Part shown: one piece after another, positions 12,698-21,214 of the stretch | Numbering within the stretch: the stretch's first letter is position 1 | Layout of the letters: each line of letters opens with the position of its first letter | Origin: Fodinisporobacter ferrooxydans | GTDB taxonomy: Bacteria; Bacillota; Bacilli; Tumebacillales; MYW30-H2 | NCBI RefSeq assembly: GCF_022818495.1 | Contig: NZ_CP089291.1 | Coordinates: 2,869,501 to 2,933,500 of the forward strand | Direction: 5' to 3' | Length of the DNA stretch: 64,000 bases | Made by a program: the position numbers and the translations under genes | Notes under the pieces: generated by a model | Told to the model about the DNA's origin: nothing | Seen by the model: the letters and a program-made list of their open reading frames with translations, nothing else | Database searches by the model: none

Positions 12698-13372
12698 TTG
12701 GAAAAATTAGATAAAAAAGACATTCAAAAAATTCGAATGATGGAATATTTTATCACAGCAACAGTCAAAATTATGGAAGATGAAGGAATACAAAATGTCA
12801 CGATACGGAAAGTCGCTGATATAGCGGGTTACAATAGTGCAACAATTTACAACTATTTTCAAGAAATTTCCCATTTGATTTTCTTTGCTGCAATGACTTT
12901 TTTAAAAAAGTATTACGATGCTCTGCCGAAATATATTAAATCGGCTGCAAACCCTTTGGAAAAATATATTTTAATCTGGGAGTGTTTTTGTAAATTCTCT
13001 TTTGATGAACCGGAAACGTATCATGCAATTTTTATTGCTAACTTAGGTATTCAAGCAGAAGATTTTCAAGATTATTACACAATTTTTCCTAAAGATATCA
13101 TCGATATTCCTGAAGAATTAATGCCAATGGTATTAGAATCCAATCTATCTAAAAGGGGAAGAATCGCATTAGAAAGAAGTGTTAAGGAAGGATATATAAA
13201 AGCAGAAAATGCTGAAGAAATTAATGAAATGGCAACATTGGTATGGACAGGAATGCTTACATTGTTTTTGAACAACAGAAGAAATTATACTAAAGAGCAA
13301 GTAGTACGAGAAACAATGAAATATATTCGGCAAATTGTATTAAATGTTAATTATTTTGATTTTCGTTCATAA
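12698..13372 (+). CDS. TetR/AcrR family transcriptional regulator
   Basis: A 224-residue protein with an N-terminal TetR helix-turn-helix (VTIRKVADIAGYNSATIYNYFQ, about residues 33-54) and a helical ligand domain. It starts at TTG 12698, preceded by GAGGTGA. It is noticeably more AT-rich than the polysaccharide genes before it. It is the nearest regulator to the divergent MFS/grd promoter region at 15.0-15.2 kb, where two identical-core palindromes lie, so it is a candidate to bind them; there is no direct evidence. Confidence 0.85.
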   Translation: MEKLDKKDIQKIRMMEYFITATVKIMEDEGIQNVTIRKVADIAGYNSATIYNYFQEISHLIFFAAMTFLKKYYDALPKYIKSAANPLEKYILIWECFCKFSFDEPETYHAIFIANLGIQAEDFQDYYTIFPKDIIDIPEELMPMVLESNLSKRGRIALERSVKEGYIKAENAEEINEMATLVWTGMLTLFLNNRRNYTKEQVVRETMKYIRQIVLNVNYFDFRS

Positions 13373-13586: not shown

Positions 13587-14966
13587 TTAATCAAGTATAT
13601 CCGTCTGTTGCAAAGAGTGTCTCGACGCTATAGCTCCTGTACGGCTATTCTTCACTACACTAGATTCACCAAGGGTAGTGTTTTTTGTTTCAGGTGCAAA
13701 CGCAACACAAATGATCAGGCCGAGAAACGTGAGACCAGTGGCAATATACATCGTTGTCCCGATTCCCATGTTGGTCAGGGCAAATGGAACAGCGAATGTT
13801 CCGACAAATGCTCCAATTCGGCTGATTGCAGTCGTGACACCGACAGCTGAGGCGCGTACATCCGTTGGGAAGAGCTCACTAGGGTAAACCAGATCCAACA
13901 CATTGGGGCCTCCGGAAAAGAGTGCGTAAATTAAAAATCCCGCGAGAACGACCCCGACAGATCCGTTCGGGAAAAGCGCATCGATGAACAGCCCAATGGT
14001 CATGAAGAGAAAGGAAAAGATGATGAGCTTCCGCCGCCCCAGTTTGTTCACAAGGAGCATTGCTGGGATGACACCGATTAAGAAAAACAAACTAATCAAA
14101 GCAGAGCCTAGAATACTTGCGTTTCCTTTGTCGAGATGGAAGGCAGCGAGAATTTCCGGACCAAACGTATACATTGCAAACAACGGAATAATTTGCAGCA
14201 TATAAAACGCGCCGACAAACAGGACGCGCCCTAAGTACCCAGGCTCAAACAATTTTGTAAAGCGTGTTTTTTCTTGAACCTCACCTAATGATTCAATATC
14301 ATATTCAGGTCCAAACACTTGATGAATAACCTGACGCGCCTCATCAATCCGGCCCTTGCTGAGAAGCCAGCGAGGAGACTCCGGCGTCCCAAATCGGAGT
14401 AGTACGATGATGACAGCTGGTACTACACTGCTTGCCAGCATCCACCGCCATGCGTTTGGCCCAGTTCCGAGCAAAAGATAGCCAACTATATAAGCTGCAG
14501 TTGCTCCAACGTACCATGTACAAAATAAAGAACCAACCAGCGGCCCTCGCTGCTTGCGCGGCAGGAATTCTCCAAGCAGTGCTGTTGTAATCGGATAATC
14601 TGCACCAATTGCGATGCCGACTATTAGACGCAAAATAAAGAGCTCAACCGCGTTGCTGACAAAAAATTGCAAAATTGAACCAACAATAAATATGATTAAG
14701 TCTATCGTGTAGAGTGCCTGGCGGCCGAGCAAGTCGGATACATAGCCAAACACAAGACCGCCTAAAAAGATGCCTGCCAGTGCAGAAGCGCCAATCAGAC
14801 CGCTCCATAGAGCACTCAGATGCAACTGGGGAGATAATTGAGACAGTGCGATCCCAATTATACTTAAAATATACCCATCCAGAAACGGCCCGCCGGAAGA
14901 ATAGATCGTTAGCTTTCGATGAAACGAAGTAAACGGCGCATCTTCTATCAATGCCTTAGAACTCAT
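13587..14966 (-). CDS. MFS transporter, sugar-porter type
   Basis: About 459 residues with 12 membrane segments and sugar-porter signatures: SDLLGRQ after helix 2, PESPRWLLSKGR before the central loop, and PETKN near the C-terminus. It is transcribed divergently from the grd operon 1. I place the start at ATG 14966 because AAAGGAG lies 8-9 nt upstream; the ATG at 14975 overlaps that site. The substrate is unknown: the sugar-porter group also includes carriers for aromatic and small organic acids. Sharing the intergenic region with grdE makes co-regulation likely. Confidence 0.85.
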   Translation of the reverse strand: MSSKALIEDAPFTSFHRKLTIYSSGGPFLDGYILSIIGIALSQLSPQLHLSALWSGLIGASALAGIFLGGLVFGYVSDLLGRQALYTIDLIIFIVGSILQFFVSNAVELFILRLIVGIAIGADYPITTALLGEFLPRKQRGPLVGSLFCTWYVGATAAYIVGYLLLGTGPNAWRWMLASSVVPAVIIVLLRFGTPESPRWLLSKGRIDEARQVIHQVFGPEYDIESLGEVQEKTRFTKLFEPGYLGRVLFVGAFYMLQIIPLFAMYTFGPEILAAFHLDKGNASILGSALISLFFLIGVIPAMLLVNKLGRRKLIIFSFLFMTIGLFIDALFPNGSVGVVLAGFLIYALFSGGPNVLDLVYPSELFPTDVRASAVGVTTAISRIGAFVGTFAVPFALTNMGIGTTMYIATGLTFLGLIICVAFAPETKNTTLGESSVVKNSRTGAIASRHSLQQTDILD

Positions 14967-15120
14967 ATCTTCCATCTCCTTTGGTTTGTTGGAATTTGGA
15001 ATGAAAATGATCTAAAATTGAGTCTCGCAATACGGCAAACAAGATTTCAAACATTTCCCAGCCCCCCTTTTTAAAAAGTTCATAATAATTTGAAAATATG
15101 AGCTATAATACTGATTATGA

Positions 15121-15136
15121 AATAATCATGATTATT
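15121..15136. promoter_or_regulatory. Perfect 16-bp palindrome, candidate operator (upstream copy)
   Basis: AATAATCATGATTATT is its own reverse complement. It shares the 14-bp core ATAATCATGATTAT with a second palindrome centred exactly 90 bp downstream. It lies in the divergent region between the MFS gene and grdE. A dimeric repressor such as the nearby TetR protein could bind both, but this is inference. Confidence 0.6.
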
Positions 15137-15210
15137 ATACCTATACATGAAAGCGATTACAATATCATTTATAAAAAATCCTGAATTTTAAAAAAACAGT
15201 TCACAATTTA

Positions 15211-15226
15211 TATAATCATGATTATA
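15211..15226. promoter_or_regulatory. Perfect 16-bp palindrome, candidate operator (downstream copy)
   Basis: TATAATCATGATTATA, with the same 14-bp core as the copy at 15121. It ends about 40 nt before the grdE start and overlaps TATAAT-like hexamers on both strands, so a bound protein would probably block the grd promoter. Confidence 0.6.
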
Positions 15227-15265
15227 ATATAATCGAGATCGAAAATGGCTAAGGAGGGAGATTCA

Positions 15266-16573
15266 TTGAAATTAGAAGTTGGAAATTTTTTTGTCAAGGA
15301 TGTCCTATTTGGTTCCGAAACATCGTTTCAAAATGGAATTTTGACAATTGATAAAGAAGAAGCTTTACAAGTCGTTCGTCAAGATGATCATATTACGGAT
15401 GTGGATTTAGTAATTGCAAAACCAGGTGATCCTATCCGTATTATTCCGGTAAAAGAAGCGATCGAACCGCGGTGTAAAGTTTCGGGAGGAGTCATGTTCC
15501 CAGGTGCGCTAAATAAGCTTGCACCCGCTGGGTCCGGCCGTACACATGTGCTGAAAGGTAGTTGTGTATTGGCGGTCGGGAAACACTGGGGCGGATTTCA
15601 GGACGGACTGATTGATATGAGTGGCCCAGGTGCAGAGAGAACCATGTTTTCTCAACTCATTCACATCTGCTTGGTTGCAGATACAGATGAAGAGTTTGAA
15701 AGATACGAGCAGCAAAAGCGGAATAAAGCATTGCGCTGGGCTGGTATGAGGCTGGCCGAGTATATTGGTCAGTGTGTAAAAAACAGGGAACCGGAAGAAA
15801 TGGAAATCTATGATCTTCCTGCAATCGATAAAAGAAGCGCGGAGGTGAATCAACTTCCGGGTGTGGTATATGTTTTGCAATTGCAGTCGCAAATGCTTGA
15901 AAACGGATACAATGCCTTGGTATATGGGTGGGATACAAATCATATGGTGCCGACGCTCATCCATCCGAACGAACTGCTGGATGGTGCGGTCATTTCGGGA
16001 AGCTTTATGCCTTGTTCGTCGAAAATTTCAACATATCAACATGTGAATAACGCCACCATTAAACGCTTAATGAAAGAACATGGGAAGACAATTAATTTTT
16101 TAGGTGTCATCTTGACGAACCTTAATGTTCAATTGGAAGAGAAGAATCGTTCCGCACTGTTTGTCAGACACATAGCAACTACTTTGGGGGCAAAGGGAGC
16201 CGTTGTTTGTGAAGAAGGGTATGGGAATCCGGATGCCGATTTTATTGCAGTGATCAATGAATTGGAAGATGCGGGAATTCGAGTTGTCGGCATTACGAAT
16301 GAATGTACGGGCCGAGATGGACGCTCCCAATCATTGGTAGATCTTTCGGAAAAGGCAAATGCAATCGTATCAACTGGCAATGTTTCCGAATTATTAAAAC
16401 TTCCGCCGATGGAGATCGTTATTGGTGAACTTGAAGCATTGGCACGGGACGGAAACTCAGGCGGCTGGGAAGGCTGTGTAAAAGAAGACGGATCTATTGA
16501 AATGGAGAATAATGGAATGTTCTGTTCCGACGGAAACACGGGTGAATTTATTAAAACCGTTGTTGAATTATAG
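15266..16573 (+). CDS. grdE: GrdE-type reductase component B proprotein (pyruvoyl precursor), operon 1
   Basis: About 435 residues of the glycine/sarcosine/betaine reductase component B alpha/beta precursor family. Known members self-cleave before a Cys to give a pyruvoyl cofactor that binds the amino substrate; the matching residue here is the Cys in SGSFMPCSSKISTY (residue 250), followed by the conserved YQHVNN and GKTINFLGVI. I place the start at the TTG at 15266: the ATG at 15245 precedes the AAGGAGGGAG ribosome site, and TTG gives an N-terminus (MKLEVGNFFVKDV) that lines up with the operon 2 copy. First gene of the operon, 3 nt before grdB. Markedly divergent from the copy at 46060, so its substrate probably differs. 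Confidence 0.9.
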   Translation: MKLEVGNFFVKDVLFGSETSFQNGILTIDKEEALQVVRQDDHITDVDLVIAKPGDPIRIIPVKEAIEPRCKVSGGVMFPGALNKLAPAGSGRTHVLKGSCVLAVGKHWGGFQDGLIDMSGPGAERTMFSQLIHICLVADTDEEFERYEQQKRNKALRWAGMRLAEYIGQCVKNREPEEMEIYDLPAIDKRSAEVNQLPGVVYVLQLQSQMLENGYNALVYGWDTNHMVPTLIHPNELLDGAVISGSFMPCSSKISTYQHVNNATIKRLMKEHGKTINFLGVILTNLNVQLEEKNRSALFVRHIATTLGAKGAVVCEEGYGNPDADFIAVINELEDAGIRVVGITNECTGRDGRSQSLVDLSEKANAIVSTGNVSELLKLPPMEIVIGELEALARDGNSGGWEGCVKEDGSIEMENNGMFCSDGNTGEFIKTVVEL

Positions 16574-16576
16574 GAG

Positions 16577-17893
16577 GTGACTCGAATGAAAAAAGCTGTC
16601 CATTATATCAATCAATTTTTTGGGCAAATCGGGGGAGAGGAAAAGGCGGACCATCTTCCTGAAATACGGGATGGGGTTGTCGGGCCCGGGATGCTGCTAA
16701 GAAGCCTGCTTGCTCCCGAAATAGAAGTTACACATACAGTCATTTGTGGCGATAATTATTTCGGATCGAAGAAAGAACTGGCGATCGGGCAAATTTTAAG
16801 CTTTTTGTCTGATATAGAATTTGATTACTTTATTGCAGGTCCTGCTTTTCTCGCTGGTCGGTATGGATTTGCTTGCGCGGAAATTTGCAAAGCGGTGCAA
16901 GAGAAATTCGGTGTATCTGTCGTAACGAGCATGCATGTCGAAAACCCTGCCGTTGAAATGTTTCGTAAACAACTTCATATCTTCAGCGGCGGCAACAGCG
17001 CTGCTGCCATGAGAAAAGATGTGCCCGTGCTGGCAAATTTCTTGAAAAAGCTCGCAAAGAGAGAACAAATCGGGGCGGCAAGCACAGAAGGTTATTTTCC
17101 GCGTGGAATACGATTGGAGTCTTTTACAGAAGTACCGGCAGCGGACCGGGTAGTAGACATGCTTCTCAAAAAATTAAATGGAGCAGCGTTTGTGACGGAA
17201 ATGCCCATGCCAAAGATAGATGTTGTTCCTATTGCACCGCCAGTTGACTTGAGTACGGCAACTGTGGCTGTTGTAAGTTCCGGAGGTATTGTTCCAGCAG
17301 GAAATCCCGATCGTATACAATCTGCTTCCGCGACCAAATGGGGAAAATATAGCATTTCTAACCTAGATTCATTGGCGGCAGGGGAATGGCAGACGATTCA
17401 TGCCGGATTTGATCCCACACTTGCAAACGAAAACCCTAACGTTATTGTACCATTGGATGTTCTTCGTGAATTTGAGAGAGAAGGCAGAATAGGGAAGCTG
17501 CATGATTATATCTATTGCACTGTCGGGACCGGGACGAGTCAGGCAGATGCGATGCGGATGGGACAAGAGATTGCCCAACAGTTACACGAGGCCAATGTCT
17601 CCGCCATCATTTTAACATCCACCTGAGGAACTTGTACACGTTGCGGTGCAACGATAACGAGAGAGCTTGAGCGTAGTGGTTTTACGATTGTTCAAATGTG
17701 CAACTTGGTTCCGATTGCCAAAACAGTCGGTGCAAACCGTATTGTTCCGACAGTTTCCATTCCTTGCCCGCTAGGAAATCCGAATCTTTCCAAGGAGGAC
17801 CAGTGGAAGCTGCGAAAACACCGTGTTGCCGTTGCTTTGGATGCTTTGGCTACAGAGATTGATGCAGCTACTGTATTTGAAGTGAAAATCTAG
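16577..17893 (+). CDS. grdB: GrdB-type selenoprotein, reductase component B gamma subunit (UGA = Sec350), operon 1
   Basis: A 438-residue protein read through an in-frame TGA at 17624-17626. Before it the protein ends in AIILTST; after it the same frame continues GTCTRCGATITRELERSG to a stop at 17893. The site matches the ILTST-U-GTCTRCGA context of known GrdB/F/H selenoproteins, with selenocysteine at residue 350. The N-terminus (AVHYINQFFGQIGGEEKAD, VICGDNYF, AGPAFLAGRYG) is typical. Component B removes the amino group of the substrate and passes the carboxymethyl group to GrdA. A 6-bp hairpin follows the TGA. Standard gene calling would split it into a 349-aa and a 65-aa piece. Substrate not determined. 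Confidence 0.93.
17624..17653 (+). promoter_or_regulatory. Selenocysteine UGA with bSECIS-like hairpin in grdB (operon 1)
   Basis: TGA at 17624 is followed 12 nt later by a perfect 6-bp stem CGTTGC / GCAACG (17639-17653) closing a GGT loop (17645-17647). A short stem with G at the loop start, 16-37 nt from UGA, is the recognised bacterial SECIS layout. Confidence 0.8.
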
Positions 17894-17898
17894 TTTAG

Positions 17899-18888
<990 letters not shown>

Positions 18889-18920
18889 ATTCGGAACATT
18901 AGACAAACAGGAGGCTAATT

Positions 18921-20372
18921 ATGATAACGCCGGTTATTAAAGGTACTTCGTCAGTCATCATTCATATTCCTAGCCTGGTACGCCATGGATCCAAACCAGA
19001 GAGAGAAATCAGGAAAGACCCTTTGCTTCTGGAAAAAATTATAGACAGTTTAAGAAGTTATGAGGATGCAGTTTCATATCCGCCCAATCAAACGTTTATC
19101 GGCAACATGAGACCTGATTCTTTACGGGAAATCCCAAGGCCTTGGGTTCAATCGCCCATTCAAAATGCCGGTCGTTTTAGCACAAACGGAGAAATCATGC
19201 CGGAAGACGAGTTTTACGGATGGTTGAAACTATCTGATGAATATAATCTTGTGATGCTTGAAGAATGCTTTCTGGCAAAAGTAAAAGAAAAAATGGCAGG
19301 ACATCCTTTAATTGAAGATGGCGACTTGCAACGGCTTGGAAAAGGTGCGAATAGGGCTGAGATTGAAGAAGCCATTGCGGCCTGCAAAGGGATCCCTTTG
19401 CACGTAAATAAAACGGAAGTCATTGGATGTTTTTTAACCGGCCATGAAGAAGATGATAATTTAACAGCTGAAATTCTCTTGGAGAATTTGTGCAATAAGG
19501 CATCCGGCCTGGTTGCGATGCGGCATGCTTTAAAATCGTTTGATGTTTCGCCGGAGCAAATTGAGTATGTGATCGGGTGTGACGAAGAGGCTGTAGGTGA
19601 CCGCTACCAACGGGGCGGCGGCAATATGGCGAAATCGATCGCAGAATTGGCCGGATGTGTCAATGCGAGCGGTTCCGACCTTAAATCCTTTTGCTGTGCG
19701 CCGACCCATGCGGTCGTTGTGGCTGCAAGCCTTGTTCAATCCGGCTTATATGATGAAGTGCTTGTCGTTGGCGGAGGGTGCTTGGCAAAGCTTGGAATGA
19801 AACTTGCCGGACATTTAAAACATGATATGCCGATTCTGGAGGATCAACTGGGCGCGATTGCCATTTTGATCGGGAAGGACGATGGAAAAAGCCCTGTGAT
19901 CCGACTCGATGCGGTTGGGAAACACAATATTTCAGCTGGTTCATCCGCACAGAATATTTATCAGACACTCGTTGTAAACCCACTTGAGGGCATCGGCAAA
20001 AAAATACTGGATATTGATAAGTATTCGGTAGAAATGCACAATCCGGAAGTTACGGAACCAAACGGCAATGGGGATGTACCGAAGACCAATTATCGAACAC
20101 TCGCAAGCATCGCTGTGATACGCGGGGAAATGGACAAAGCAAAGATCCCGGAATTCGAAATATCCTATGGAATGCCCGGATTCTCTCCCACGCAAGGGCA
20201 TATTGCCGCAGCCATTCCTTTTCTTGTTCATGCCAGAGAGATGATCATGAATGGTGAAATCAACAACACCATGTTTATCGCAAAAGGTAGTTTATTCCTG
20301 GGGAAAATGACAAAATTATCGGATGGAATGTCATTTCTGATTGAAAAAAACACAGGAGGCCTGGAGAGATGA
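18921..20372 (+). CDS. grdC: GrdC-type component C beta subunit (FabH/thiolase-like), operon 1
   Basis: A 483-residue protein of the glycine/sarcosine/betaine reductase component C beta family. It has a 3-oxoacyl-ACP-synthase-III-like core with conserved AELAGCVNASGSDLKSFCCAP (Cys258/Cys259, the expected acyl-accepting position), VVGGGCLAKLGMK and GMPGFSPTQGHIAAAIPF. In the known enzyme, component C converts the carboxymethyl-selenoether on GrdA to an acetyl thioester. The partner GrdD, which releases acetyl phosphate, is not encoded next to it nor anywhere in this window. The stop overlaps the thioredoxin start (ATGA). Confidence 0.9.
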   Translation: MITPVIKGTSSVIIHIPSLVRHGSKPEREIRKDPLLLEKIIDSLRSYEDAVSYPPNQTFIGNMRPDSLREIPRPWVQSPIQNAGRFSTNGEIMPEDEFYGWLKLSDEYNLVMLEECFLAKVKEKMAGHPLIEDGDLQRLGKGANRAEIEEAIAACKGIPLHVNKTEVIGCFLTGHEEDDNLTAEILLENLCNKASGLVAMRHALKSFDVSPEQIEYVIGCDEEAVGDRYQRGGGNMAKSIAELAGCVNASGSDLKSFCCAPTHAVVVAASLVQSGLYDEVLVVGGGCLAKLGMKLAGHLKHDMPILEDQLGAIAILIGKDDGKSPVIRLDAVGKHNISAGSSAQNIYQTLVVNPLEGIGKKILDIDKYSVEMHNPEVTEPNGNGDVPKTNYRTLASIAVIRGEMDKAKIPEFEISYGMPGFSPTQGHIAAAIPFLVHAREMIMNGEINNTMFIAKGSLFLGKMTKLSDGMSFLIEKNTGGLER

Positions 20373-20686
20373 TCGAGGTAAACAAAGAAAATTTCACAAT
20401 AGAAGTTCTTGAATCCGAAATGCCCGTTTTGGTCGATATATGGGGACCTTCCTGTCAACCTTGTCTTGCTTTGCTGCCGCAAGTGGAAAGCCTTTCTGAA
20501 ACCTATCGTGAAAAGGTAAAAATCGTGAAATTAAATAGTGCACAAAATCGCAGGCTTTGTATTGATTTAAAAGTAATAGGATTACCGGCCTTTCTGCTTT
20601 ATAAGAATGGAATAGAAGTCAGTAGACTAAGCAGCAAAGACATTGCGATTCAAGATATTGAAAACGTGCTGGCTGAGCAAGTCTAA
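20369..20686 (+). CDS. trxA: Grd-associated thioredoxin with CQPC active site, operon 1
   Basis: A 105-residue thioredoxin. The active site is WGPSCQPC (Cys29, Cys32) instead of the usual WCGPC, and the cis-Pro segment is VIGLPAFLLYK. Variant active sites are known in Grd-linked thioredoxins. It overlaps grdC by 4 nt and precedes grdA, so it probably reduces the mixed Se-S form of GrdA after each cycle. Confidence 0.9.
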   Translation: MIEVNKENFTIEVLESEMPVLVDIWGPSCQPCLALLPQVESLSETYREKVKIVKLNSAQNRRLCIDLKVIGLPAFLLYKNGIEVSRLSSKDIAIQDIENVLAEQV

Positions 20687-20752
20687 TAAAAAATTGTCAC
20701 ACGTACTTGTAGATTCATTTTTAAATTCAATTTCAAAAAAGGAGAGATTTTT

Positions 20753-21214
20753 ATGTCGCTACAAGGCAAGAAAGTTTTTATTCTCGGTGAGAGAGATGGC
20801 GTGCCTGCTCCCGCTATTGCTGAGTGTGTACAGGCAGCCAATGGAGAAATCATATTTTTTGATACCCAATGTTTTGTCTGAACGGCTGCCGGAGCAATGG
20901 ACCTTGAGGTTCAAGGTCGCCTTATGAAAGCAGTGGAAGAGCATGGCAAAGAAAATATACTGATACTTTTAGGTTCTCCGGACGCCGAAAGTGCGGACAT
21001 TTATGCTGAAACAGTCACGTTGGGGGATCCGACATACGCGGGACCGTTGGCCGGGGTTTCATTGGGCCTCGACGTCTATCACATTTTGGAGGACGAAATA
21101 AAGGCACTCATACCCGAAGGTGTATATCAAGAACAAGCAGGTGTTGCTGAATTATCTTTAGATAAGGATGCAATTTGTGAAATTATGAAAACTGCTCGTT
21201 CGAAAATAAAATAG
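20753..21214 (+). CDS. grdA: GrdA selenoprotein, reductase component A (UGA = Sec43), operon 1
   Basis: A 153-residue protein. ATG 20753 follows GGAGAG; the frame runs through TGA at 20879-20881 to the stop at 21214. The redox site is C-F-V-U (Cys40, Sec43) followed by TAAGAMDLEVQ, the diagnostic GrdA context. GrdA carries the carboxymethyl group as a selenoether between components B and C. A perfect 8-bp hairpin with GGT loop follows the UGA. Without readthrough only the C-terminal 105 residues would be called from ATG 20897. Last gene of the operon, with a terminator 49 nt downstream. Confidence 0.95.
20879..20918 (+). promoter_or_regulatory. Selenocysteine UGA with bSECIS-like hairpin in grdA (operon 1)
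   Basis: TGA at 20879; then, 18 nt after it, the perfect stem GACCTTGA / TCAAGGTC (20900-20918) around a GGT loop (20908-20910). The hairpin is identical in the operon 2 grdA. Loop position is about 27 nt from UGA, within the accepted bacterial SECIS range. Confidence 0.82.

Follow-up and report, generated by a model that had tools for sequence, protein, structure and literature searches.

BetI is the TetR-family choline repressor of Proteobacteria. In Bacillus, control of choline and glycine-betaine genes is exerted by the MarR-type proteins GbsR and OpcR, which act on gbsAB, opuB and opuC (PMC7396694). Within the TetR family, some regulators bind as two dimers to operators of 28 bp (QacR), 31 bp (Ms6564) and 32 bp (CgmR) (PMC4150764).

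The locus described here lies in a 64,000-nucleotide stretch of Fodinisporobacter ferrooxydans DNA (the window), in which a TetR-family regulator of 224 amino acids (12698-13372, + strand) is encoded near an MFS transporter gene and a divergent operon of the glycine/sarcosine/betaine reductase type. Two perfect palindromes between the divergent genes are very probably docking sites, as yet putative, of this neighbouring repressor, which in many Bacillota would govern the breakdown of glycine betaine or a closely related compound. We give a probability of roughly 0.85 to the more specific reading that they form the stronger half of each of two tandem operators through which the 12698 regulator would control the grdE and MFS promoters.

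The 12698 regulator resembles BetI in its family and in its proposed control of choline and betaine genes, and BetI models are its best NCBIfam hit (1.4e-10, residues 6-97). It differs in that its scores lie far under the cut-offs (41.1 bits against 201.3, and 36 against 118 with the other model; TIGR03384 and NF001978), in that the match leaves out the ligand domain, and in that its relatives here are Bacillota, in which many of the targets look betaine-using and not betaine-making. As the whole-protein scores are under the curated cut-offs, the regulator was rejected as a BetI equivalog. GbsR and OpcR share with the proposed system the control of choline and glycine-betaine genes, but they belong to another protein family and are tied in that work to osmoprotectant uptake and synthesis (PMC7396694). 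The operators proposed here are as long as that of Ms6564 (31 bp) and their 17-bp pitch would seat two dimers; in contrast to those described for QacR, Ms6564 and CgmR (PMC4150764), their halves are separate, non-overlapping palindromes, and two-dimer binding is putative.

Palindromic operators of a TetR repressor at divergent promoters are a familiar arrangement; what is new is the proposed pair of regulator and operator. Among the titles and abstract openings covered, which included few subscription papers, no description of this regulator or its operator was apparent, the string AATCATGATT included, and no regulator of betaine-reductase selenoenzymes was found among titles and abstract openings.

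The reductase operon and its divergent promoters

The operon begins with a GrdE-like substrate subunit of glycine/sarcosine/betaine reductase (15245-16573, + strand; Pfam PF09338, 4.5e-182), whose true start, judged by eye from the starts of its orthologues, is probably the TTG at 15268 behind AAGGAGGG and not the ATG at 15245 of the longest frame. This is followed by a GrdB/GrdH-like selenoprotein (16577-17887, +), in which the UGA at 17624-17626 is read as selenocysteine, and by the rest of the presumed operon (17917-21214, +), encoding a TrxB-like protein (labelled by eye), GrdC (component C beta), thioredoxin and GrdA. A SECIS_4 element (17627-17664) directly after the grdB UGA and an in-frame UGA at 20879-20881 in grdA identify both genes as encoding predicted selenoproteins, and the operon as that of a predicted selenocysteine-containing reductase of the glycine/sarcosine/betaine type. 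GrdB, compared only up to its UGA, scored best with the betaine-type GrdH model of NCBIfam (533 bits, cut-off 775) and GrdE reached 405 bits with the sarcosine model GrdG (cut-off 780); the substrate-specific cut-offs were passed by neither GrdE nor the UGA-truncated GrdB. The divergent gene (13587-14975, − strand) encodes an MFS transporter (Pfam Sugar_tr, 1.2e-64; MFS_1, 7.6e-34), a homologue of which is also divergent from grdE in the relative G004.

The 12698 regulator, whose recognition helix reads GYNSATIYNYF, has the N-terminal helix-turn-helix (HTH; Pfam TetR_N, PF00440, 1.4e-07, 31.6 bits against a cut-off of 24) and the all-helical ligand domain of its family, and a palindrome covers a predicted target promoter near its gene. 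Its AlphaFold2 model is all-helical, with a mean pLDDT of 92.5, and has TetR-fold matches in the PDB. Many TetR proteins match this model at Z 12-14, Ms6564 and QacR among them, a spread which indicates no particular ligand, and the absence of BetI from the structural matches listed says nothing either way. A sequence search of solved structures returned 23 matches, chiefly to the HTH part.

The distal, MFS-side palindrome AATAATCATGATTATT (15121-15136, core 15122-15135) and the proximal, grdE-side palindrome TATAATCATGATTATA (15211-15226, core 15212-15225) have ATAATCATGATTAT in common, and recomputation of their positions and symmetry upheld the earlier note, which had described two perfect 16-bp palindromes with centres 90 bp apart. 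That note had also seen the core nowhere else in the window, which is correct for the exact 14-bp core, and the genome scan that it proposed as a check returned exactly two copies in the 4.86-Mb genome, both at this locus; copies with one mismatch were absent from the matches listed. Perfect 16-bp palindromes are not very rare in the window, with five found against a simulation mean of 1.5 (five or more in 1 of 100 simulations), so that a lone palindrome has little meaning and repetition is the signal. First-order simulations of the intergenic region, which is 72% A+T, repeated an identical 14-bp palindrome in 1 of 20,000 runs.

Exactly 17 bp from each perfect palindrome lies a weaker partner that had previously been overlooked, ATAATACTGATTAT (15105-15118) beside the distal, MFS operator and ATAATCGAGATCGA (15229-15242, with 3 mismatches in 12 positions) beside the proximal, grdE operator. 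The resulting 31-bp tandem unit, with up to three mismatches allowed, occurs at two places in the whole genome, both within the 15105-15242 region, and at none in a reversed control. By hand calculation 17 bp corresponds to about 1.6 helical turns, which would place two dimers roughly on opposite faces of the DNA.

The consensus of the 14-bp palindrome is the 12-position motif ATAATCNNGATTAT, to which at least 11 places in the genome have one mismatch. The three of these that were inspected (505359, 3906008 and 257920) all fall inside open frames of at least 100 codons. The last is the single one-mismatch site in a 19-kb stretch around the best GbsA homologue of this genome (55%, at 247842), far from the gene and inside a frame.

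Each perfect palindrome overlaps one predicted −10 hexamer, the proximal one that of grdE and the distal one that of the MFS gene, which suggests one operator per divergent promoter. The predicted grdE promoter (15200-15228, +) consists of a −35 element TTCACA (15200-15205), a 17-bp spacer and a −10 element TATAAT (15223-15228), matches 11 of 12 consensus letters and is the best promoter-like site between 14900 and 15400. The predicted MFS promoter (15162-15134, −), with −35 TTGTAA (15162-15157), 17 bp and −10 TATAAT (15139-15134), is one of three sites that tie at 10 of 12; two alternative sites on the + strand, also 10 of 12, begin at 15187 and 15188 and both finish at 15216. In total this interval holds eight promoter-like sites, against 2.6 in shuffled sequence.

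Between the two promoters, and overlapping the predicted MFS −35 element, lies TGAAAGCGATTACA (15148-15161, on both strands), which was likewise overlooked before and has no mismatch to TGWAANCGNTNWCA, which we take to be the CcpA cre consensus. It is the only perfect cre match in the window, where 0.15 are expected. In 11 grdE upstream regions, an exact cre was present in three, a one-mismatch cre in three more and neither in five, with about 0.08 exact and 0.6 matches of up to one mismatch expected, by hand, in the 4.5 kb of DNA concerned; the best 80 of 207 TetR loci (1.56 Mb) hold 26 exact matches and 189 with up to one mismatch. CcpA, acting at this match between the promoters, would probably add catabolite repression.

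Distribution of the motif among TetR relatives

The motif accompanies the TetR subfamily across genomes. In the best 80 of 207 loci of TetR relatives, 1.56 Mb in all, ATAATCNNGATTAT is found 27 times without a mismatch, and 12 of these copies fall in the 320 bp preceding tetR, compared with a mean of 0.39, a maximum of five and none near tetR for 59 permuted control palindromes in the same loci. When up to one mismatch is allowed, the count is 100, with 50 near tetR, in 38 of these 80 loci, and 12 permuted controls gave 2 to 24 copies each, with at most one near tetR (in two controls). The motif often lies about 100 bp upstream of tetR in these relatives. An operator upstream of the regulator's own gene is common, but not universal, for TetR-family repressors; in the window no operator site was found upstream of 12698, though one is present in 38 of the best 80 of 207 relatives, and G004 also has no such site upstream of its tetR.

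The tandem arrangement recurs outside the window. Around 107 sites with up to one mismatch, a scan of partner offsets from 14 to 70 bp gave 6.2 and 5.1 standard deviations at +17 and −17 bp and 2.8 at the next best offset, values which are not probabilities, as the loci are related and pairs of two good sites are counted twice. Of these 107 sites, which were chosen by the same consensus, 101 retain the C and 107 the G near the palindrome centre.

Among 398 genomes of the class, 29 encode a TetR of the 12698 type at 1e-25, seven of which hold nine exact cores, all nine within 20 kb of tetR and five at 95-134 bp from it. Exact cores also occur in 31 of the 369 TetR-negative genomes (34 copies in total; Fisher p 0.013 for 7/29 against 31/369), and because of these the mere presence of a core is a weak sign.

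The recognition helix separates loci with and without the motif. Across 84 loci, including the window, G004, G008 and G034, an intergenic site is present in 56 of 67 with a GYNSAT or near-GYNSAT helix (the other 11 lack one by the same test) and in 1 of 17 with a GYTSST-type helix. A second sample of short loci (30 of its 35 matches), which has the window and some genomes in common with the first, gave 12 of 20 against 0 of 10. Four GYTSST loci (L116, L118, L120 and L128) have no intergenic site even though all four contain BCCT genes and three also contain PepX/CocE-like genes, indicating that the motif follows the recognition helix and not the target genes. Since the GYTSST helix forms one sister clade in the tree, this link amounts to about a single evolutionary contrast.

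In eight of the 17 GYTSST loci (L039, L095, L096, L101, L105, L110, L113 and L124), an amidohydrolase-like gene (labelled by eye) and a small partner (c14) lie near tetR with no motif; these eight probably have a different operator and ligand.

Conservation at orthologous promoters, the lack of which the earlier note had named as grounds for refutation, was also found, with a site of up to one mismatch near the start of 10 of 12 GrdE genes, the window included. The grdE gene of Texcoconibacillus (L054) has only a weaker, degraded 17-bp pair and that of Frackibacter (L094) has no site at its promoter. A degraded 17-bp pair is all that is present at a further close GrdE gene in G284, and no operator site was found at the promoter of a second Ammoniphilus grdE (L168, on contig 44 of G171). 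No site with up to two mismatches was found upstream of the GrdE gene (46% identity) of G017, in which this TetR is absent at 1e-25, or in the 1500 bp upstream of a second GrdE-like gene in the window (L034; 46048-47196, 34% identical). G171 also carries a locus like L050 besides its site-less second close copy of grdE.

The uniqueness of the sites in the genome, their conservation at orthologous promoters and the association of the motif with the TetR subfamily all favour the 12698 protein, named in the earlier note as the nearest regulator, as the likely, still putative, regulator of both promoters.

Spacing, other binders and base composition

The earlier note had taken the 90-bp spacing to be close to a whole number of helical turns and thus suited to looping. 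At 10.5 bp per turn it is 8.57 turns, nearer a half turn, and the spacing is not conserved, the distances between best sites in relatives being 61 or 78 (G008), 78 or 95 (G004), 84, 103, 105, 120, 152 and 972 bp. That TetR dimers on both palindromes loop the intervening 90 bp and thereby repress both promoters is unlikely on these grounds, even with two site sets upstream of most grdE genes examined. The gene divergent from grdE is MFS in the window and G004, BCCT in L051, L055, L068, L084 and L107, and malic-enzyme-like (labelled by eye) in L050, and where such a gene is present further sites are found on its side, that of the G004 MFS gene having three mismatches. In Salsuginibacillus (L059), where grdE lacks a divergent gene, there is a single site of up to two mismatches. 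G008 and L054 keep an additional two-mismatch upstream site without a divergent gene, which leaves a small chance of a residual role for looping. The site sets of a BCCT/DMGDH-like gene pair in L078 are 116 bp apart. With variable spacing that is out of phase, looping over 90 bp is unsupported, and the presence of two sites is explained by the two divergent promoters, one operator serving each.

Another regulator, such as a MarR-type repressor of the GbsR/OpcR kind, could bind the palindromes. The operator of B. subtilis GbsR, which controls choline-to-betaine genes, is an inverted repeat rich in A/T whose halves are 4 bp apart (PMC7396694), and a GbsR-like gene (named by eye) lies beside gbsA in G008. 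A homologue search covering G000, G004, G008 and G034 argues against this, as G004 has sites at both grdE and gbsA and yet no GbsR match at E ≤ 0.001, and the two homologues in the genome of the window (40-42%) are about 1.8 Mb distant. GbsR was rejected as the binder because of the sites in G004. The motif moreover goes with tetR, some copies lying immediately upstream of that gene, and with the TetR recognition helix, and we consider binding by a regulator of this other kind very unlikely.

The palindromes could also be a side effect of promoter DNA that is rich in A/T and contains TATAAT elements, as the 72% A+T of the region and the overlap of the cores with −10 hexamers might suggest. This is the least probable explanation and can be dismissed, given that permuted palindromes of equal composition are on average about 70 times rarer in the same loci, that simulations so seldom repeat a 14-bp palindrome, and that the central C and G are so consistently kept, albeit in sites chosen by that consensus.

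Target genes and the proposed betaine switch

For the preferred reading, with the TetR regulator acting on tandem operators, the targets in relatives indicate a possible ligand. In G004 and G008, tetR adjoins a sodium-solute symporter gene and choline-oxidation genes. G004 has sites at grdE, a site located 79 bp upstream of gbsA and accompanied by a 17-bp partner, and one 387 bp ahead of the symporter gene, and its GbsB and betaine-aldehyde dehydrogenase (BADH) score above their curated cut-offs; G008 has a two-mismatch site upstream of gbsA and a one-mismatch site upstream of tetR. Of 43 BCCT genes, 22 have a site with up to one mismatch close to their start, as do 16 of 40 genes for PepX/CocE-like hydrolases, and the single BCCT that was tested scores above the cut-off of the glycine-betaine equivalog (680 against 650). 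Further sites are located between tetR and a methyltransferase cluster of the MttB superfamily (L106), between BCCT and a DMGDH-like oxidase (L078), and upstream of BCCT in a locus with a DMGDH-like oxidase and a Rieske oxygenase in its cluster (L100).

Glycine betaine is the common denominator of these targets, from which we infer its role as ligand, and it leaves the PepX/CocE-like hydrolase unexplained. The window transporter being MFS and not BCCT counts against the betaine reading. In Neobacillus, Sporosarcina and relatives (L057, L060, L061, L067, L073, L083 and others), the TetR is found with BCCT, the PepX/CocE-like hydrolase and an M24 (creatinase/prolidase-like) peptidase. In Lysinibacillus (L077 and L080-L082), the same TetR is linked to the PepX/CocE-like hydrolase and an MFS-type gene.

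In the mechanism that we propose, each operator would consist of two 14-bp palindromes of the ATAATCNNGATTAT type at a 17-bp pitch, 31 bp in total, with room for two dimers abreast, one operator covering the predicted −10 element and start of the grdE promoter and the other those of the MFS promoter. The bound TetR protein would act by repression rather than activation, blocking RNA polymerase at both promoters, and release of the repressor by a small molecule, for which glycine betaine or another quaternary amine related to it is the likeliest candidate, would turn transporter and reductase on together. The cre match between the operators would probably contribute catabolite repression.

On a broader view, to which we give even odds, this TetR subfamily, apparently undescribed so far, would switch on the use of glycine betaine as food throughout the Bacillota, with glycine betaine as its ligand and one operator grammar (the motif in a 17-bp tandem) governing chemically unrelated routes, namely selenium-dependent betaine reduction, corrinoid methyl transfer (MttB superfamily), oxidative demethylation (DMGDH-like/Rieske), choline oxidation and BCCT uptake. 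The Bacillus betaine regulators found among the titles and abstract openings, GbsR and OpcR, have been described for the osmoprotectant use of betaine. With a conserved repressor whose 31-bp operator is readable, the Bacillota that use glycine betaine as food could be predicted more easily from sequence, and such a repressor would be a candidate betaine biosensor.
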